DNA from: Bifidobacterium tissieri
Lineage (GTDB): Bacteria > Actinomycetota > Actinomycetes > Actinomycetales > Bifidobacteriaceae
Assembly (NCBI RefSeq): GCF_002259645.1
Contig: NZ_MWWV01000012.1
Span: 1-64,000 of the forward strand
Length of the DNA: 64,000 bases
Direction: 5' to 3'
Shown: positions 7,377 to 20,395 of the stretch, in pieces
How the letters are laid out: every line of letters starts with the position of its first letter
Position numbering within the stretch: the stretch's first letter is position 1
The notes under the pieces: generated by a model
What the model saw: only the letters and a program-made list of their open reading frames with translations
Told to the model about the DNA's origin: nothing
The model's database searches: none
Translations under genes and position numbers: made by a program

Positions 7377-8570
7377 CTACAACCCCTTGCGTTTGAGCTC
7401 GGCGACAAGCCCCACGTAGAACTCACGCACGTCGAAGCCGGGAATGTTCTCACGATTCAAGTCGATCATGTCGGCATGGGAGATGCCACGATCACCGGAC
7501 GGCTCCAGCCACGTGAACCAGTCACCCCAAGGGAAGGGTGGGCGGGACACCAGACCATCATTCGGCCCGTCGAACCATTTGACCAGCGGATAGGTGAAAT
7601 TCAGCGGGAACCGGCCCGTCGTGGCATGCAGCAGACGCGAGCCAACGCTCTGACAGACGATGCCGGGAAACTGGCCGAGACCGATGCTACGGTTGATGCG
7701 CTCGCATCCCGCTTGCGTCAGATCATGTACGGCAGCCATGAAGTCTGGATGCGTGTCGCCCAGCTTCGCTGCCGCGGCATTGTAGGATGCGGCCACCCGA
7801 CGCTGCGCGGGCTCGGGAATGGACCCGAGCAGATAGTCGGCGAACCCGCAGCCGCGATGCGGCGTATTGATGGTGGTCAGCGAGGCGACATACCCGCCGA
7901 TTCCCTCGCGGGCAATCGCCCAACGCATGTCGAGCCCGCCCTTGGAATGGGCGATCACGTTGACCTTGCCACATCCGGTCTCCTCGACGATCCGACGAAT
8001 ACGGTCGGCGAGCTCACGGGCACTGTCGGCGACCGACGCCGCCGACTGATGGTTGCCATAGTAGATGATCGCCCCATTGCGCTCCAGCTCCCCGGGGATA
8101 CGCCCCCAATAATTGATCAGACGCGAGTCCCGGAAGAACACGCCATGCACCAGCAGGATCGGATACCGTGTGGCGCACACCCGCTGCGCTGCACGGGAAC
8201 GGTCAAGTGCCTCCTTGGCGGTTTCAAACCGGACCTCATCACGTACCGTGCGAATGATCAGACGCAACGCGATGAGATTGGCGATCGGAATCCACCCGCA
8301 GACGATGCCAATGACCCGAATACGCATGCCAAGCTGCACGCTGGTCAGATACACGGTGATAATCCCAACCCAAAAGATCACCGATTCGACAAGCACGACG
8401 ACGAGCGTGACAACGAGCCAGGGCAGCCAGTCACGCGGAATCATGACGAACGCGGCACCGGCGAGCGCCACCGTCGCGACCAACGTCGTCCACCAGAACA
8501 CCTGCAGGGTCACCACACCGAAACCGCATGCGCGCAGTCGGCCGGACGGCATAGCCGTCGCACCATTCAT
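7377..8570 (-). CDS. Alpha/beta hydrolase, triacylglycerol-lipase-like, membrane-anchored
   Basis: The protein is 397 residues from the ATG at 8570, chosen because AGAAGGAG precedes it; a longer frame opens at 8627. Three hydrophobic segments fill about residues 10-110. The catalytic part follows: YPILLVHGVFFRD (oxyanion-hole region), VNVIAHSKGGLD with the nucleophile serine in the AHSKGG elbow, and INTPHRGCGFADYLL. These are hallmarks of lipases of the LipA/PGAP1-like group, so it probably hydrolyses a lipid or ester at the membrane. The substrate is not evident. It sits about 100 bases upstream of the solute-binding protein gene in the same orientation. Confidence 0.8.
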   Translation of the reverse strand: MNGATAMPSGRLRACGFGVVTLQVFWWTTLVATVALAGAAFVMIPRDWLPWLVVTLVVVLVESVIFWVGIITVYLTSVQLGMRIRVIGIVCGWIPIANLIALRLIIRTVRDEVRFETAKEALDRSRAAQRVCATRYPILLVHGVFFRDSRLINYWGRIPGELERNGAIIYYGNHQSAASVADSARELADRIRRIVEETGCGKVNVIAHSKGGLDMRWAIAREGIGGYVASLTTINTPHRGCGFADYLLGSIPEPAQRRVAASYNAAAAKLGDTHPDFMAAVHDLTQAGCERINRSIGLGQFPGIVCQSVGSRLLHATTGRFPLNFTYPLVKWFDGPNDGLVSRPPFPWGDWFTWLEPSGDRGISHADMIDLNRENIPGFDVREFYVGLVAELKRKGL

Positions 8571-8641
8571 CGCATCTCCTTCTGCACCCCAGTTATCCCC
8601 GAACACACGTTCCATCCTATCCGCCATCGCCTACGTTTGGC

Positions 8642-8720
8642 AGCACGATGAATGCGGCATTCGTCCTCGACCCCGACGGCAACAACATCGAAGCCGTCGT
8701 CGACTGGTCCGGCTGGTACA
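8642..8720 (+). pseudogene. Remnant of a VOC (glyoxalase/bleomycin-resistance) family protein C-terminus
   Basis: The plus strand encodes NAAFVLDPDGNNIEAV just after an ATG at 8648. This is the characteristic C-terminal signature of small VOC/glyoxalase-fold enzymes, where it supplies the last strand and a metal-binding glutamate. Nothing before it in that frame resembles the rest of such a protein, and after it the frame dissolves into Thr/Pro/Asn-rich text that is the antisense of the neighbouring gene. It looks like the tail left after deletion of a VOC gene. Confidence 0.5.
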
Positions 8721-8745
8721 CCCACACCACCAACTTAACCAACCA

Positions 8746-9732
8746 TCACGCCAACACCACAGACACCACCAACCCCGCAGACTCCTCACCAGACCACACA
8801 CCACCAGTACGATCCCAACCCATACCATTCGCACGCACCGCAACAACACCATACCCACGAGCCTGAGTCACCAGCCACACAGCACACTGCCATACCAATC
8901 GCCGAGCATCCCCATCAGACAACCCCGACGGCAACGACAACACCAACGACCCGGAACCGGACACCACTGATGAACCGGCCCCAGACGCGCTCGCCGAAGA
9001 AGACCCAGACACGGCCCCAGACGCGCTCGCCGACGCCGACGCGCCCGCAGCACCATCCGACACCGTGATCATCGGAAACCTAGTCCCAATCGCTGCAACC
9101 AACCCATCCCGATCAGAACCACCAGCCGGCTCCAACGCACACCCAGCCCCCGCAGCCACCTCACCAGTCAACGCCTGCGCCCAAGCCCGAGCCAAATCAT
9201 CCCAATTCGCATACAAATCCGGATACCCCGACCGCTGCACCTCCTGCGCAGCATCCTCCGTCGGAATTGACTGCCAATCAGGCACCTTCACCAGCGCATC
9301 ATAAAACGCGTTGATCGCATACGACTCATCCATCAACTGCTCAACCGAACCCCAACCCTGACTAGGACGCTGCTGAAAAAGCCCAACCGAATCCAGATCA
9401 CCATAATCAATATTCGTCAACTTCGACTCCTGCATCGCCGTGGCAATCGCCACAGTAACCGCATGATCAGGCAAACCCCGCTCCATCGCAATACGAGCAA
9501 TAAGCGCCGCATTCGACGCCTGCGTAGGACTCAACGGAATCGTGCCAGACCCAGCCGAACAATACGCGTCAGCCGCCGAACGCGGCGCAACAGTATCCGC
9601 ACGACGCAGATTAATCAGCACAGCAACCATGGCAAGCGCCGTAACAGCAGCAACCACAGTGAACATCACCGCAACCACCGTACCAACACCACCACGTCGC
9701 CCCACACGCCCATATCGCAAATGCCGTCCCAT
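8746..9732 (-). CDS. Lytic-transglycosylase-like secreted or membrane-anchored protein
   Basis: The 328-residue protein has a basic N-terminus, one membrane helix (about residues 18-42), a globular domain with AMQESKL and GDLDSVGLFQQRPSQGWG, a Ser/Ala/Gly-rich linker and a smaller C-terminal domain. The ESKL and GLFQQRPSQGWG motifs belong to an actinobacterial lysozyme-fold domain in which the glutamate is a candidate catalytic residue, which suggests wall remodelling. GGAGGTG precedes the ATG at 9732. Codon use is unusual: third positions are mostly G or T, unlike the C-ending preference of neighbours, giving a plus strand rich in A and C. Recent acquisition is possible. Confidence 0.7.
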   Translation of the reverse strand: MGRHLRYGRVGRRGGVGTVVAVMFTVVAAVTALAMVAVLINLRRADTVAPRSAADAYCSAGSGTIPLSPTQASNAALIARIAMERGLPDHAVTVAIATAMQESKLTNIDYGDLDSVGLFQQRPSQGWGSVEQLMDESYAINAFYDALVKVPDWQSIPTEDAAQEVQRSGYPDLYANWDDLARAWAQALTGEVAAGAGCALEPAGGSDRDGLVAAIGTRFPMITVSDGAAGASASASASGAVSGSSSASASGAGSSVVSGSGSLVLSLPSGLSDGDARRLVWQCAVWLVTQARGYGVVAVRANGMGWDRTGGVWSGEESAGLVVSVVLA

Positions 9733-10857: not shown

Positions 10858-11055
10858 GCTTTCCTTTCGTTCGTTATCAGACCACATCTCCATCGCCTAA
10901 GGCAACATGTATGCATGAAAATGCATACACGAATCCCTAGGTATCTGGTCAATGCGCTCAAAACGAGCGAAAGCATGAAAAATCACACCATGTCAAACAA
11001 TACCACACTTTTCAAAAGAACAAAACGCTAAAAGTAAGCAAAAGAATCATCGACT

Positions 11056-11964
11056 TCAGCCGCGCTCGCCGTCGTCCGCCGATGACGCGGTGCGCTTGTC
11101 CGCCTGCTCGATGATCACACGCAGGTAGTCCTGTGCCGCCGTCTTGCGCCGGGGAACCAGACTATCTACGATCGCATCCTTCCTGCCACGATTTTTGACA
11201 TACAGAAACCCGATGATGGAGAAGACCAGCGCGCCGATGAAGTTGACGATGAGATCCTCCATCGTGTCGATAAGACCAATGTCCAAGTAACCGCCAAGAC
11301 CAAGATCATTGCCGTTGACGCTGACCTGCGTGATGTCGGGAATGGAGACGATCCGGTTGCCATGAGACGGATCCAGCATGACCGAACTGATGGAATGGAC
11401 GACCGCGTCCTTCTGCATATCCAATCCGAACAGCATGTCCATGCTGAATTCGAAGAATTCCCAGACCACGCCGATCGTCATGGAGAAACAGAACGAGACG
11501 AGTGCCAGATAGGCGGGAGACAGTTTAAACTTCGTCGTATTGGAACGGTTGAGCAGGTCAACCAGTGAGAACCCGATCGCGGCGGCGAGGAACCCGTTCA
11601 GCGTATGCAGCACGGTATCCCAAAAGGGGAACAGCTCGTAGAAAGCGCTGATTTCGCCAAGGATCTCCGCAGAGAACACGAAGACCAGCATAATCACTTC
11701 AAGAACGGACGGAAGCTCAATGCGCAGCTGCAACTGAATGAATGCCGGAGCCAGAAGCAATAGCAACGTCAGTACGCATAGGAACACGTTCTCATAATCG
11801 CCGTTGAAAAACTGCAGAATCGCCATGGCGATGACGAGCGCACGAAGGGTCACATACACGGCGAACGACACCTTGTGCTCGCGAAGCTCCATGCGCATCG
11901 CCTGCCGTATGATCCTCCAACGGTGCCGTACCGAGGAGCTTGCGTTCCTGTTTTTACCCATCAT
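11056..11964 (-). CDS. Polytopic membrane protein (DUF2238-like)
   Basis: The 302-residue protein has about seven hydrophobic segments between residues 40 and 250 and a charged C-terminal tail (KNRGRKDA onward). The segment FPFWDTVLHTLNGFLAAAIGF followed by GVVWEFFEFSMD resembles the DUF2238/YjdF group of membrane proteins of unknown function. GGAAGGG lies just before the ATG pair at 11964 and 11961. About 200 bases of AT-rich DNA separate it from the unknown gene downstream. Biochemical function is not predictable. Confidence 0.7.
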   Translation of the reverse strand: MMGKNRNASSSVRHRWRIIRQAMRMELREHKVSFAVYVTLRALVIAMAILQFFNGDYENVFLCVLTLLLLLAPAFIQLQLRIELPSVLEVIMLVFVFSAEILGEISAFYELFPFWDTVLHTLNGFLAAAIGFSLVDLLNRSNTTKFKLSPAYLALVSFCFSMTIGVVWEFFEFSMDMLFGLDMQKDAVVHSISSVMLDPSHGNRIVSIPDITQVSVNGNDLGLGGYLDIGLIDTMEDLIVNFIGALVFSIIGFLYVKNRGRKDAIVDSLVPRRKTAAQDYLRVIIEQADKRTASSADDGERG

Positions 11965-12865: not shown

Positions 12866-12898
12866 GGGGTCGCGCGTTTGGATGTAACGCGCGACCCC
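12866..12898 (+). terminator. Terminator hairpin after YvlD-like gene
   Basis: GGGGTCGCGCGTT (12866-12878) pairs with AACGCGCGACCCC (12886-12898) around a 7-base loop, followed by ATATTTGTTT. Confidence 0.82.
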
Positions 12899-13043: not shown

Positions 13044-13367
13044 ATGAACGAGATCATCCATTCCACGACCCGGCTGCGCATCATGGCCACCATGGTCGAG
13101 CTGGGGGTTGGGCGTCGTATTTCGTTCAAACGTCTAATCAGATTGCTGGACGTCACCAAAGGAAACCTGTCCGTGCAATTGAAGAAGCTGAACGAAGCAG
13201 GCTACATCACGATCATCAAGTCGTTTTCCCCAACGGGTGTTCCCTCGACGGAAGTCAAACTCACCAGGGAAGGCAAAGCCGCCTTCGATAGATATCTCAC
13301 TGATCTGCGCAGAATTCTCAAACCGGATTTTGACTTGTCGGAAGAGATGACATCGGCACAGCAATAG
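13044..13367 (+). CDS. Winged-helix transcriptional regulator (MarR/HTH_34-like)
   Basis: The 107-residue protein has a winged-helix fold: ISFKRLIRLLDVTKGNLSVQ gives the recognition helix and EAGYITIIKSFSPTGVP the wing, about residues 25-75. It is a small single-domain DNA-binding protein. ACAGGAGGGG precedes the ATG. It sits 160 bases before jetA in the same direction, with an inverted repeat both before it and between it and jetA, so it is a candidate regulator of the jet operon (inference). Confidence 0.8.
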   Translation: MNEIIHSTTRLRIMATMVELGVGRRISFKRLIRLLDVTKGNLSVQLKKLNEAGYITIIKSFSPTGVPSTEVKLTREGKAAFDRYLTDLRRILKPDFDLSEEMTSAQQ

Positions 13368-13527: not shown

Positions 13528-15039
13528 TTGGGTGATGTGAGACAGGAGCTGGAGCGACTTCGGTCGGTGTACGAGACCGGCGTGCTACGCCTGCTCCTAC
13601 GTCGCAATTCAATGCTGTATGTGGCGTTGCTGCGTTCCTCGTTTGATCCACTGACCGGGGAACTGCCTAGGGAGATCCTTGAAGACCGCATCGCTCAGGG
13701 ATTGAGAGAACTGGTCGGTTCCGGTGAATATGCGCTTGGCGAAGACCAGACGTATGCATCTGCGGCACGTCAGGTCCTTGCCGAACTAACCCGTGAGGGC
13801 GATGACGATTACGCGTGGCTGGCCAACTCATTGGATACCGGTACGCATCGATTCCTCTATCGTCTCACGGCACGCGCGCATCGGGCGATCGACGCACTTT
13901 CCCGACTCGATGACGATACACGGACCCTGTCCGGAGCACAGGCGAACAGCATCATCATGGAGATCGAACACGCCCGTATGCAGTTGACCGAGGATCCGCG
14001 GGAACGCGTCACGTTGCTCAATCGAGAGATCAAGACTCGTAAACGTGAGATCAAACGAATCCTGCACGGTGATGATACCAGTCGTCTATCCGATCAGGCC
14101 GTTGAGGACATCATCGCCGTAATTCACAACACCCTGCGAGGAGTGCCTGTGGAATTGCACGAACTCGCATTATCCGAACGTGACAACGGCGATGCACTTC
14201 GTCGTCGTATGCAGTCTGGAGGCATGTCGGTGAATGCGATACTCACCGCATATCACAATGGGTATCGCAAATCGTTCCGCGAATCCGATAGTGGACGACG
14301 ATTCGATGACGCGTTCCAGATCATCGTCACTGATGAAGGTCGTCAGCAGATCGACGATGCGATGCGTGCCATCGCCAAGAGCCCGTATCTGGAAGGGGAG
14401 ACCAGTACGCTGCTCGGCCAGGTCAAGTCCGAACTTGCCCGCATCTATGACGGCATTGAGGATGTCCGTAGGCAAATGCGAGTTTCAGATGAAGCCGTCA
14501 GCCGTCTGGTGCGTCAGCAGACCGACACCCGCTATCGCACCATGCTCGACACGCTTAATCGGCTGTTCGTCAAACTCAACACCGAAGCACGCGAACACCC
14601 AGACGACGGTGCAACGCCATATGACACAAACACCGCGTCCGTACGTTTGGCAGGACTGCCCACACGTCCAGCCAAGCCAATGACCCGTTCCACAACGCCG
14701 GAATTGGCCACTCACACGCCCGTTGTCCCACTTGGCATCCCCGACATTCAGTCGATGATCGAAGTAGGCGGACCGAGGCTCAAACGCATGATCACAATGA
14801 TCCTGGATCATCCGGTTATGCAGAATGATCTGGTGAATATGGCCGCCAGTTTCAACCAGCTGCCTGAAGCAGAGCGTCGAGAAAGCGAACTCATCGGCTT
14901 TCTCGGCAGTCTCCGTGCCTCGGGAGAAGGCTACGTGACCTGGCATTGCATGACATTGGGTGGCAAACCACGATCATGGCGAACCCGGCCCGTATTGGTA
15001 AGCGAAGCGACGTTGACAACCATCATGGAGGAAGAATGA
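13528..15039 (+). CDS. jetA: JetA/MksF-like kleisin (DUF3375), Wadjet-type SMC complex
   Basis: The 503-residue protein matches DUF3375, the kleisin subunit of Wadjet type I (JetA) and MksBEF (MksF) condensin-like complexes. The N-terminal [21 protein letters not shown] and the long helical middle with [13 protein letters not shown] are typical. Kleisins bridge the SMC heads. It uses a TTG start: GAGG at 13517-13520 is seven bases upstream, and no better ATG is nearby. Its stop overlaps the jetB start (ATGA), so the pair is translationally coupled. Family Wadjet complexes act against plasmids; whether this one does is uncertain because jetD is missing. Confidence 0.86.
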
Positions 15040-15854
15040 GCGACATGACGAACGACACGCTCTTGGATGGCGATGGCACCGACATCAATCCAAACGCCCT
15101 GTTCGAAGGCGATCTGAGTACCATGCCGTCCGATGCACGCATGGCGGCGATCGCGCTCAAACGTGACCGGTATATCACCGGATCCCTGTACGACACGGTG
15201 ATGGACAACCATGACGACGTCGTGCGTTCCCTCAACAATGACATGCTGGAACTGGTCGTCAACACCCATTACCGCATCATGTACGCCGCACCGGTCAGTG
15301 GTCCGGACATCGTCATCCGTTCGCTGAAAACCCGATCCAGTCTGACACGAGAAGAAGCGGCATTGCTGGCATTCCTGCGCATCCGAGTGCTGGAATACGA
15401 AAACGTGAACGCCGACGTCGATCAATGGATCGTCGGATATGAGGAAATCCGGGCAGCGCTGACCACAGGCGCGGGATACCTCGCCGCACGCAACGATGAG
15501 GAAGGCGTGCTCAGAAAACTCTCCGTGACCATATCCATGGCACTGACCCACGGATACCTATCCGAAGTGGAAGACGATGACGGCATGTACCGAATCACGC
15601 CGTTGGTTCCCGTCGTGCTGGACCGGCAGCTCGCCGAGGAATGGCTGAATGCCAATTCCGCGGAGGTTGACGATCCCACGACGGCAAACGGCAAGGATCT
15701 CACTGATGGGGTCGATACGACGATGTCTGGCGATCCTGACTATGCGTCAGATGACGGAACGAATGACCTGCCGGGCAGGGGGCGTGATGCCGGAACCAAT
15801 GCGTCACGCGAGGGCATGACATTGTTCGAGGATGAGGAGGATGAGGGGAAGTGA
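15036..15854 (+). CDS. jetB: JetB/MksE-like KITE subunit (DUF4194)
   Basis: The 272-residue protein resembles DUF4194, the KITE-type winged-helix subunit that binds the kleisin in Wadjet/MksBEF complexes. [21 protein letters not shown] and the [13 protein letters not shown] segment fit the family. The last 60 or so residues are an acidic, low-complexity tail. The ATG at 15036 follows GGAGGAAGA and overlaps the jetA stop; a longer frame from 14946 would overlap jetA by 90 bases and is not used. The stop abuts jetC. Confidence 0.84.
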
Positions 15855-15856
15855 CC

Positions 15857-18800
15857 ATGTCACACGATATGCAGATCATTGCCGACCGTTGGATGCTGAA
15901 TAGCCGTTGCCTCATCAACTGGGGCTCGTATGACGGTTACCATGAATTCCGCCCCTCCACGGATGCCATGCTTCCGGTCACACTGCTCGCAGGGGCGAGC
16001 GAATCCGGAAAATCCACTCTGGTGGACGCGCAGATCTCCCTGCTGTATCCGACCGGCACACCCTTCAACAAGGCATCCAATACCGGTCGCTCCGAGCGTA
16101 GCGATTACACATATCTACGCGGCATGCTCGGCTACGACAACACCGGCAATGGTGATGTTCCGGCGTTCCTTCGAGGACGTCGTGACGACGGGACCCCGCA
16201 GCCGGTCTGGGGAGCAATCGTGGATACGTACGTCAATCACACCACCGGTCAGACGTTGTCGTGCGGCAAGTTCCTCTACCTGTCGGCGGGCGACGGGCAG
16301 GGAGATGTCCGTCGGCAATACGTCACCTGGGATCACACGATCGATCCACGACTCATGGACCGCTACCGCGACACCCCGTTTACCCCAACCCAGTTGAAGA
16401 ACACGTATGTCGGATGCGACACATTTCCGAACGCCGACGCGTTCCACACATACATCTGGCGGGTCATGGGACTGAGCGCGGAAGCATGCCGGCTACTGCA
16501 CAAATTGCAGTCGGCCGATGCGCCCTCGCGTCTCGACGATATTTTCAAGCAGGGTGTGCTTGGAGTGCCGGAGGCGATTGGACTCGCGCAGTCCGCCGTC
16601 TCCGATTATGAACGGTATGACACGAACTTCCGAAGCATGGCGGAGAAGACCCAGCGAATCGAACGACTCACTGCCATTCAGCATGCCTACGACGCCTATG
16701 CCACGGCATTGCAGAATGTGCACGACTTTGCTCCGGTGGACCCGGAATCCGAACAGGGCAATGGCCACGCCACGATCGTAAGCTGGGTGACAAACCGCAT
16801 GACCGGCGAAGTACGCAAGCGGGTGCCAATCGATGTGCTTGCCCTGAAGCGCAAAGAGCAGGATCTCGAATCCCTGCAACGACAGGCGGACGCCATGCGG
16901 GATCGTGTTTCGCAAATCGAAACGCAACTGAACAATCACGATGAGGGAAGCCTCACACGCTTGGAAGCCCAGCTGAAGCAGGCGGAGATCACGCTGCAGG
17001 ATGTCACCGAACAGCGTGATCGCTTGCAGACACGGTTTGCCACCGCTGGCATGACCATGCCCGATGACGCGCAATCGTGGGAATCATGCCGCGCCGATAT
17101 CGCCACATTAAGTGTTGAGCTTAACCAGCGCAAGGATTCGCTGACGGAGCAGCGCAATACCGCGGTACGTATGATCGGTGAGGCAAAACGTACATTGGCT
17201 GCGTTGCGTCAGGACTACGACCGTCAACGCAGGCAGCGCACCCGTATCTCCCAACCGATGGATGAGGCACGGTCATTGCTCGCACAGGCGACCGGACTAT
17301 CCACCGACGAGCTGCCGTATGTGGCCGAGCTCATGGATGTTCGGGAGGATGCCGAGGAATGGCGCAACGCCATGAACGTGGTCTACGGTCAGCTTGCCCA
17401 GACCATTCTCGTGGACAAGCGTCACGAGGCGGGCTTCGCCGCGAAGGTGAGCACAATCGATCCCAAGCGTATGATCCGTCGCACATGGACGTTTGTGGAC
17501 ACCACCAGGGATTACATCGCCGATGGCGAGAAGGCGTGGATGTCAGGCAAGCTCCGATATCGGGAGGATTCGCCGTTCGTCGATTGGCTCAAATCCCAGA
17601 CGTCCTCCGAACGGCTGGATGCTCTATGCGTGGATGACATCGATGATGAGTCCGCCACACGGCAGGTGCAGCGGGATGGTCAGATCAAATCCGGAAGGCA
17701 CGGCCACCACGGCAGCAAGGGATTGCACCCCGTCATTGGTTTCGTCACCGAGTCATATCTTGACGAACTGCGCAGCCAGTTCGTCAAAGCGGAAGCCCGT
17801 CTGTCCGATGCGGAGGACGACTATCGTGAGGCGGACGCCGGCATCGACCTGTTGCGAGCCAAAGAGGAGTTGGCGGATCAGCTGTCGTACACGACATGGG
17901 ACAAAATCGATGTCGACGGAGCCGAACAACGGATCTCGGAACTGCGCACGACCATCGATTCGTTGCGCGACGATCCGGAGCTCGCCCATCTGCTTGATGC
18001 CCGACGAAACGTGCAACAGCAGCTTGACGCCATGCAGGAGCAGGCGATACGCGCAAAGATGGACCGAGATGAGATCCAGCAGGCCATTCAGACCGCTCGG
18101 CAATGGCTTGACGAACATCGAGGCGTCACGCTGACCTCCGACACGTCCGGGCATCTCGCCGACGCAGCGATCAAGGTTCTGACCGACGCATACGAGCACG
18201 TGTTCTCCAGCGTGCTCAACCCGGAGGATCGGGCCGGCCTGATCGTCACGGCAGCGAACAGGACCGCTGCGAACAAGGTCACGACCGATGAGGAATCGAA
18301 GCGGTCGAAACCGGGGGAGACGTTCGTGGAGCGGGCCGTGTCCAGCGTGGAGAAGGAGATTCGTCAGAAGATCGCAAGGTTGCGTGAGAACGTGGATGCC
18401 ACGCGCAAAACCGTAGAGGATCGGATGACGACGTACCATTCCCTGTACGTGCCTGATGACAATACCATCACGACCACTGTGACCGACTACCGGTTCTATC
18501 AGGAGGAATTGAAGAGCCTGAATCTGCTGGCTGCGACGACCGCGACCAATGAGGAATACGTAAATTGCCTGGACAAGCTGCTGATGGACTTCACCCAGCT
18601 CAACCGGGCGATCGATGCGGATGCTCGAGACATCGATGACCAGCTGGACAAGATCAACGCCATGCTCAAAGGGCAGCAATTCGGTCCACGACACGGCAGT
18701 CTGTCCATCGGCGCGGATGTACGGCGTCCGGAAGCCACATTCACCGGACCGTTGAAGCGGACGATGACATTGCTCAGTGAATGGAAGGCCGGCAGCCGTG

Positions 18801-19312
18801 TGTCCCCGGAGGAGAATCGTCGGGTATTCGCCAAATGCGCCGGACTGGTGAATCGGCTCAGGACGGAGCTCGAACAGGTTCGTGACGCGAACGGCATCCG
18901 CAGCTATGGTGCCCGCAACCTTGACCCGCGATGCCGCTCCTCGTTCTACGCGATCGTGCATCATAAGGACGGGCCGGATGAGCGCATCACCTCCACCGGT
19001 GGCAAATCCGGTGGCGCATTGCAGGAGCTGACATCGTTCGTATATGGTGCGGCGCTGATCTATCTGCTGGGTGGCGACGTGACCGGACAGCCCACATACA
19101 CCACGCTGTTCCTTGACGAGGCGCTGATCAAGGCCGATGGCCGCTATACCCAGCGTGCGCTGTCGGTGCTGCCCCGACTGGGATTCCAGGTGATCGTCTC
19201 GGCTCCGGAAAGCAAGACCGCCGAGATCCTGGAAGTCTCCTCGAAGGCGTACGTGGCGTACCGTGATCCCGACACCTCCCGCTCGTATTTGCAGGAGGTG
19301 CTTCCCGAGTAA
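15857..19312 (+). CDS. jetC: JetC/MksB-like SMC ATPase
   Basis: The 1151-residue protein is an SMC/SbcC/MukB-type ATPase. A Walker A motif, GASESGKST, lies at residues 46-54. Long heptad-like coiled coils (about 270-470 and 610-960) surround a hinge-like region. The C-terminal head has the signature TGGKSGGALQ (Ser1051) and Walker B LFLDEALIKAD (Asp1087, Glu1088). It would load on and extrude DNA with JetA and JetB. The ATG at 15857 sits eight bases after GAGGGG; a GTG at 15851 overlapping the jetB stop is the alternative. The next gene is convergent, so no jetD follows. Confidence 0.88.
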   Translation: MSHDMQIIADRWMLNSRCLINWGSYDGYHEFRPSTDAMLPVTLLAGASESGKSTLVDAQISLLYPTGTPFNKASNTGRSERSDYTYLRGMLGYDNTGNGDVPAFLRGRRDDGTPQPVWGAIVDTYVNHTTGQTLSCGKFLYLSAGDGQGDVRRQYVTWDHTIDPRLMDRYRDTPFTPTQLKNTYVGCDTFPNADAFHTYIWRVMGLSAEACRLLHKLQSADAPSRLDDIFKQGVLGVPEAIGLAQSAVSDYERYDTNFRSMAEKTQRIERLTAIQHAYDAYATALQNVHDFAPVDPESEQGNGHATIVSWVTNRMTGEVRKRVPIDVLALKRKEQDLESLQRQADAMRDRVSQIETQLNNHDEGSLTRLEAQLKQAEITLQDVTEQRDRLQTRFATAGMTMPDDAQSWESCRADIATLSVELNQRKDSLTEQRNTAVRMIGEAKRTLAALRQDYDRQRRQRTRISQPMDEARSLLAQATGLSTDELPYVAELMDVREDAEEWRNAMNVVYGQLAQTILVDKRHEAGFAAKVSTIDPKRMIRRTWTFVDTTRDYIADGEKAWMSGKLRYREDSPFVDWLKSQTSSERLDALCVDDIDDESATRQVQRDGQIKSGRHGHHGSKGLHPVIGFVTESYLDELRSQFVKAEARLSDAEDDYREADAGIDLLRAKEELADQLSYTTWDKIDVDGAEQRISELRTTIDSLRDDPELAHLLDARRNVQQQLDAMQEQAIRAKMDRDEIQQAIQTARQWLDEHRGVTLTSDTSGHLADAAIKVLTDAYEHVFSSVLNPEDRAGLIVTAANRTAANKVTTDEESKRSKPGETFVERAVSSVEKEIRQKIARLRENVDATRKTVEDRMTTYHSLYVPDDNTITTTVTDYRFYQEELKSLNLLAATTATNEEYVNCLDKLLMDFTQLNRAIDADARDIDDQLDKINAMLKGQQFGPRHGSLSIGADVRRPEATFTGPLKRTMTLLSEWKAGSRVSPEENRRVFAKCAGLVNRLRTELEQVRDANGIRSYGARNLDPRCRSSFYAIVHHKDGPDERITSTGGKSGGALQELTSFVYGAALIYLLGGDVTGQPTYTTLFLDEALIKADGRYTQRALSVLPRLGFQVIVSAPESKTAEILEVSSKAYVAYRDPDTSRSYLQEVLPE

Positions 19313-19336
19313 TCTGCGGGCCGGACTCTGCTTTGG

Positions 19337-20395
19337 CTACTCCTCCAGCGTGATGGGCTTGCTATGGTCCTGACGGTAGATGTCGGGCTCCACGTAGATC
19401 TCGAACGTATACCAGGGGAGCGCGTTGCGCACGGAGGTTTCAAGCTTGTCGACGGTCTGCACATCGAAATCGCGATCAAGTTTTGAAGTCTCGATCTTGA
19501 CGCACAGCAGGATGTCGTTCTCCGACATGTGCACGGTCTGCATATTGAGCAGGCGTGTCACGCCCGGGGTTGCCTTGACCGCGGCGACGATCTTGGAGCG
19601 CGTATCCGGATCGACGGCTTCACCGATCAGCAGAGAACCGGATTTGAAGGCGAGCAATATCGATCCGCAGATCAATACCAGACCGACCATGAGACCACCG
19701 ATGGCATCCCACAGCTCGTTGTCCAGAATGATCGCCAAGCCGATGCCGGTACCGGCGAAGGCGAGGCCGATCAGAGCAAGCGTATCCTCCATGATCACGG
19801 CTGCAAGCTCAGCGGACTTGGTGCGCCTCCAGAACCGGTAGAGGCCCATGTGCGGGGTATTGGTGTTGCGCATACGCTCGTTGGCTTCCTTGCTGCTCTG
19901 ATGCAGACCGTAGCCTTCCAGGCATGCGCTGATGGCCACGACGGCAAGCGCCACAAGGAGCTCGCCCTGATTGGCATCGCGCAGAGCGGGGTTCTCAACG
20001 ACGGCGATGATCTTTTTTACCGCCTCTGACGTGGAGAAGAATCCGCCGACGAAGAAGAGCAACGTGGCGACGACGAACGACGCGAGATACTTGGCCCGAT
20101 AAAGCCCGAATGGATGATCGCCGTCGGTCTTGTGATGGGAGAATCGTCCTCCGATCATCAGGACGATTTCATTGGAGCAGTCGGCGATGGAGTGAACGGA
20201 CTCGGAAAGCATGGCGGATGAACCGGTGAATGCGGCGGCGCACAGTTTGGCGATGGCGACGCCGATGTTGGCCGCAAGTGCGGCCTTGACCGCCGTTCCC
20301 GCATGTTTGCTGTTCTGAGCGACTGTTGGTTGTTTCGTAGTGCTGACGTTATTGGTTGCTACAGCCTGTTGAGCCGAATCCGCGGATTCGTCCAT
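19337..20395 (-). CDS. Cation diffusion facilitator (CDF) family transporter
   Basis: The 352-residue protein has six predicted helices and CDF features: SAMLSESVHSIADCSNE in the second helix, DHPFGLYRAKYLAS after it, and VIMEDTLALIGL in the fifth helix, whose acidic residues resemble the metal site. A C-terminal cytoplasmic domain (DIRQDHSK-like tail preceded by a metallochaperone-like fold) follows. It probably exports Zn, Mn or Fe by proton exchange; the metal is not predictable. The gene converges with jetC, 24 bases away, and no regulator is adjacent. Confidence 0.88.
   Translation of the reverse strand: MDESADSAQQAVATNNVSTTKQPTVAQNSKHAGTAVKAALAANIGVAIAKLCAAAFTGSSAMLSESVHSIADCSNEIVLMIGGRFSHHKTDGDHPFGLYRAKYLASFVVATLLFFVGGFFSTSEAVKKIIAVVENPALRDANQGELLVALAVVAISACLEGYGLHQSSKEANERMRNTNTPHMGLYRFWRRTKSAELAAVIMEDTLALIGLAFAGTGIGLAIILDNELWDAIGGLMVGLVLICGSILLAFKSGSLLIGEAVDPDTRSKIVAAVKATPGVTRLLNMQTVHMSENDILLCVKIETSKLDRDFDVQTVDKLETSVRNALPWYTFEIYVEPDIYRQDHSKPITLEE

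Follow-up and report, generated by a model that had tools for sequence, protein, structure and literature searches.

Here we describe an intact, translationally coupled jetA–jetB–jetC operon on the forward strand of Bifidobacterium tissieri DNA (positions 13528–19312 of the 64,000-nucleotide stretch analysed, hereafter the window), from which jetD, the nuclease gene of type I Wadjet systems, is absent. We consider it probable that this JetABC is kept by selection without JetD and is in effect an MksBEF-like accessory SMC complex, with DNA compaction or segregation as its most likely use. The nuclease-free kind is already known from MksBEF of Pseudomonas aeruginosa, a condensin (PMC7485682) that likely originated by loss of JetD (PMC10586767). 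The new part is that a single locus is armed and disarmed over and over, as bifidobacteria have many independent, partly very recent JetD changes at orthologous loci, seen for example in B. vansinderenii compared with B. callimiconis and the window genome, and in the genome pairs G095–G045 and G083–G084. Such close natural pairs with and without JetD make the role of JetABC without its nuclease directly testable. A search of the Wadjet and JetD literature, covering few subscription papers and thus no proof of novelty, returned no paper on JetD-less loci in bifidobacteria.

A jetABC operon of type I Wadjet ancestry

All three proteins match their expected families far above the cut-offs, in agreement with a preliminary description of this DNA that had read them as a kleisin, a KITE subunit and an SMC ATPase (Table 1). 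JetA scores 282 bits against DUF3375 (cut-off 28.6) and JetB 97 bits against DUF4194 (cut-off 32.7), JetC carries the Pfam domains AAA_29 and SbcC_Walker_B, and the PADLOC profiles JetA1, JetB1 and JetC1 return 820 (full length), 337 and 1731 bits. JetC also aligns with the solved JetC of the P. aeruginosa and E. coli Wadjet systems (8dk2, E value 4.6e-27; 8as8, E value 2.9e-25), and a profile of JetB relatives matches solved JetB with an E value of 7.5e-24. The Walker A (GASESGKST), signature (STGGKSGGALQEL) and Walker B (TLFLDEALIKADG) motifs are all intact, in this JetC as in nearly all of its relatives, and the ATPase was thus rightly described as free of decay. We conclude that type I Wadjet ancestry of the operon, without jetD, is confirmed.

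Table 1 Features of the jetABC region, in window coordinates
Feature	Position	Strand	Evidence
Winged-helix (HTH_34) regulator, upstream, same strand	13044..13367	+	Pfam PF13601, 68 bits; cluster c60
jetA (mksF-like), kleisin, DUF3375, 503 aa	13528..15039	+	Pfam PF11855 and PADLOC JetA1
jetB (mksE-like), KITE subunit, DUF4194, 272 aa	15036..15854	+	Pfam PF13835 and PADLOC JetB1
jetC (mksB-like), MukB-like SMC ATPase, 1153 aa	15851..19312	+	PADLOC JetC1, PDB matches, motifs
Gap from jetC stop to 3' end of convergent CDF gene, 24 bases	19313..19336	.	Junction comparison of the window genome (G000), B. callimiconis (G001) and B. vansinderenii (G008)
Cation-efflux (CDF) transporter, convergent, conserved flank	19337..20395	-	Pfam PF01545, 129 bits; gene order

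The start codon of jetA is TTG, with an RBS-like GAGGA 6 nt upstream, and the jetA/jetB and jetB/jetC junctions are 4-base overlaps (ATGA and GTGA). The winged-helix gene upstream is a possible regulator of jetABC, inside or outside the operon. Upstream of both, 3' of a holin-like gene, lies a strong hairpin of 13 pairs with a T-rich tail (12866–12898), likely a terminator. At the other end, the CDF gene does not start 24 bases after jetC, as had been stated; it ends there, with its stop at 19337.

JetD is missing from the whole genome

The window corresponds to bases 1–64000 of contig 4 in a genome of 2.87 Mb (38 contigs, 99% complete). A Pfam search of the whole 2.87 Mb found no match to JetD_C (PF09983), and a JetD profile that we built from 21 bifidobacterial sequences likewise found none here; across the 30 remaining JetD-less genomes its best E value was 0.06. 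The same profile recovers the JetDs of B. vansinderenii, G026 and G044, and is sensitive enough to pick up a remnant of 100 residues in G084. The absence of jetD noted for the window therefore extends to the entire genome, and the earlier suggestion that JetD is encoded elsewhere is excluded here at the sensitivity of these profiles; assembly gaps are an unlikely explanation for the 31 absences. With JetD missing both from the locus and genome-wide, plasmid cleavage by the window system is not expected.

A first tblastn search for jetD remnants 3' of jetC matched every JetD-less locus, and we traced these matches to two JetD reading frames that were too long and ran over jetC in a different frame. 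Once JetDs of correct length were used, the sole remnant was that of G084, and there was none in 32 JetD-less loci.

jetD comes and goes at orthologous sites

The window JetC is 75% identical to those of B. callimiconis 2028B and B. vansinderenii Tam10B. All three genomes share the same gene order, with the winged-helix gene upstream and the CDF and ABC-F genes downstream, and these conserved flanks make their jetABC sites orthologous. B. vansinderenii has jetD at exactly the window site, B. callimiconis does not; the B. vansinderenii insert, missing in the other two, spans about 2.4 kb and holds jetD, which shares 4 bases with jetC, together with a 336-aa gene that matches no Pfam family. In the JetC tree the window genome is the outgroup to the other two, the GC content of jetD in B. 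vansinderenii is 0.56 compared with 0.64 for jetC, and its JetD clusters (support 82/88) among JetDs from other clades. Taken together, these make a gain in B. vansinderenii no less probable than two separate losses. Low GC in several jetD genes hinted at recent gain, but for G095 the JetD and JetC trees agree, and low GC alone was therefore not accepted as proof. In the JetD-less B. callimiconis, a TAG stop interrupts jetA (locus L070, about 13584–13600), so that in one species, at least, loss of the complex is probably under way.

Across the family, 68 of 189 genomes encode JetA; 37 of these have a JetD_C match, which in G084 is a fragment and in G026 lies away from jetABC, and the remaining 31 carry jetABC alone, with no JetD anywhere. 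A JetC tree of 67 loci requires 17 or more switches in JetD presence, and 15 independent pairs sit on its well supported branches. Two close pairs illustrate this: G084 differs from G083, whose locus is complete, by a fresh loss of about 785 bases within jetD, with jetABC 90% identical, and the loci of G045 (jetD absent) and G095 (jetD present) share 93% DNA identity.

We then examined 66 JetA loci from 395 genomes of the actinobacterial class, using iterated profiles for their annotation. In the resulting JetC tree, JetD is present in 19 of 19 members of one clade, absent from 16 of 17 in another (which includes a compact group) and from 18 of 23 in a third, and the bifidobacterial clade is mixed. 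Six genomes (G190, G237, G371, G373, G389 and G470) carry a complete jetABCD together with a separate JetD-less JetABC. JetABC without JetD is thus a widespread and lasting state, not peculiar to the window, and defence annotation that counts JetABC as Wadjet overstates plasmid immunity in the bifidobacterial group. JetD state may also help to explain bifidobacterial differences in plasmid uptake.

JetABC is under purifying selection without JetD

In JetD-less lineages JetABC is under purifying selection. Pairwise Nei–Gojobori dN/dS between JetD-less species is about 0.04–0.25, no higher than between JetD-bearing species, with medians of 0.094 compared with 0.109 for JetA, 0.157 with 0.25 for JetB and 0.114 with 0.166 for JetC; pairs that mix a JetD-less and a JetD-bearing species average the time before and after the change. 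For G005 and G006, which share a common JetD-less junction, neutral expectation is about 45 stops in jetC, 14 in jetA and 7 in jetB, and none is observed. Only one of the 32 loci without an adjacent jetD has a broken jetABC gene, that of B. callimiconis.

An accessory complex beside SMC–ScpAB

The window genome keeps SMC–ScpAB (SMC hinge at C33:4912, ScpA at C17:29395, ScpB at C17:30199), which makes its JetABC an accessory instead of a replacement. Bifidobacteria that lack ScpA show no enrichment of JetABC (25 of 40, compared with 35 of 72; p = 0.17), which thus seems unlikely to be an indispensable stand-in condensin. We also rejected the idea that specifically the JetD-less form replaces lost SMC–ScpAB: 26 of 31 JetD-less species keep ScpA, and independent pairs show nothing of the association seen in the raw counts (Fisher p = 0.002).

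Separately, the SMC hinge, ScpA and ScpB are jointly missing from 27 of 35 bifidobacterial genomes tested, the 35 having mostly been picked for ScpA absence. The 27 are G022, G027, G028, G035, G039, G040, G043, G044, G047–G051, G054, G055, G057, G059, G060, G062, G067, G073, G081–G084, G091 and G123. Among them, G039, G047, G049, G073 and G081 have JetABC without JetD, and G050, G055 and G057 have neither SMC–ScpAB nor JetA. The B. longum strain of a Hi-C study has only a distant MksBEF homologue (PMC10197239).

By comparison with known systems, the window operon shares with type I Wadjet (JetABCD, also MksBEFG or EptABCD) the JetA, JetB and JetC families, their order and the coupled operon, but has no JetD nuclease (DUF3322 plus JetD_C/TOPRIM) at the locus or in the genome, whereas its sister B. 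vansinderenii has one. Like P. aeruginosa MksBEF, it combines a kleisin, a KITE subunit and a MukB-like SMC, with no nuclease subunit, beside a complete SMC–ScpAB. It differs in belonging to another sequence lineage, actinobacterial JetABC, with a putative chromosomal function, and in that bifidobacterial JetD comes and goes at one locus between sister species. C. glutamicum MksBEFG is likewise an actinobacterial DUF3375/DUF4194/SMC operon, but it has the nuclease MksG and acts on plasmids, not on chromosome folding (PMC7083940, PMC10123090).

Judging from other members of the family, the JetA kleisin and JetB would link JetC dimers, and the assembled dimer of dimers would load on DNA and use ATP to extrude or bridge loops, in the manner of other Wadjet and MukBEF motors. 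Without JetD the outcome would be DNA compaction or help with segregation, of the chromosome and possibly of plasmids, instead of cleavage, and the complex would act beside SMC–ScpAB as an accessory. The preliminary description had offered a condensin, as opposed to plasmid defence, as one option. It is now the best-supported one, given purifying selection, an intact ATPase and many long-lasting JetD-less lineages; the chromosomal part of that option would hold by analogy with P. aeruginosa MksBEF. Counting against it, an effect of the JetD-bearing MksBEFG of C. glutamicum on chromosome folding was undetectable (PMC7083940).

The same conserved motor could instead serve plasmid control without a nuclease. 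JetABC would then still recognise small DNA circles through total loop extrusion, and would silence, compact or mis-segregate them without cutting, comparable to Smc5/6 acting against extrachromosomal DNA. The Wadjet motor is a sensor of circle size (PMC10586767) and is fully conserved in the window, and loss of mksB raises plasmid copy number in C. glutamicum (PMC7083940). B. subtilis, however, needs all four Jet subunits against plasmid transformation (PMC10586767), and we regard this explanation as unlikely.

Probable effector exchange and the JetB N terminus

The JetA, JetB and JetC trees differ somewhat, and JetD conflicts most with JetC (AU p = 5e-94, deltaL 266 over 387 columns, compared with deltaL 46 over 503 columns for JetA and JetC), even though most JetD clades match JetC clades. 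A conflict of this strength makes it likely that JetD has to some extent been exchanged between lineages. Extending this to actinobacteria at large, JetABC could be a stable platform that has its own function, to which JetD is added as an exchangeable module, dropping out of one locus and returning to it time and again. Wadjet defence and MksBEF-type condensin would then be reversible states of one complex and not separate systems; we offer this generalization tentatively and think it may well not hold.

An exchangeable effector also raises the prospect, anticipated in part by the earlier proposal that another nuclease replaces JetD, that a different nuclease, with its gene at another genomic site, docks on JetABC. 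Unlinked effectors do occur: G026 has an orphan jetD (L139, G026:C47, about 7651–8958) far from its jetABC on C24, which is either one half of a Wadjet split by nature or a JetD that stands by itself. But no JetD homologue was found in any of the 31 JetD-less genomes, and comparison of neighbourhoods revealed no replacement gene common to the JetD-less loci. The adjoining genes look ordinary and vary by species and clade, with glnE, uvrA/uvrC, a MazG-like gene, an ABC permease and the CDF transporter among them (the glnE, uvrA, uvrC, MazG-like and permease identities are putative, read from the sequences by eye), which speaks against a common neighbour as JetD substitute and leaves the replacement proposal with no support there.

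The JetB N terminus bears on the same question. In another Wadjet an IFDR motif at this end contacts JetD (PMC10586767), and the window JetB has an ALFEGD motif at residues 21–26 (15096–15113), of a type (ALF[ED]GD or RFDGD) that is nearly invariant in most actinobacterial JetB, JetD present or not. Its retention in JetD-less species would fit docking of a substitute effector. Yet ALFxGD is also kept in the mostly JetD-less actinobacterial clade and missing from the clade that always has JetD. We had considered the motif as a JetD dock that erodes without JetD, but it shows no erosion, and class-wide it is absent precisely from the clade that never lacks JetD. In actinobacteria ALFxGD therefore does not mark effector docking. 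Solved JetBs can be aligned only past ALFxGD or over its final residues, and the motif could therefore not be equated with IFDR. On balance, a swapped or split effector appears quite improbable.

Least probable, and already disfavoured, is a disarmed Wadjet in decay, in which jetD would have disappeared only lately and jetABC would persist as a remnant that has yet to break: the fresh internal jetD deletion of G084 with intact jetABC and the stop in B. callimiconis jetA would fit it, but neither nonsynonymous changes nor stops are in excess over divergences of dS 0.3–1, broken genes are confined to that one locus, and one actinobacterial clade lacks JetD almost throughout.

Two further observations concern gene content at individual loci. 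In G095 (L130, about 11030–11800), two small genes 3' of jetD resemble, by eye, an MNT/HEPN toxin–antitoxin pair and are absent, together with jetD, from the sister genome G045. In G090 (L128, 5443–9515), about 4 kb with several other genes separates jetA from jetB in a divergent Wadjet.
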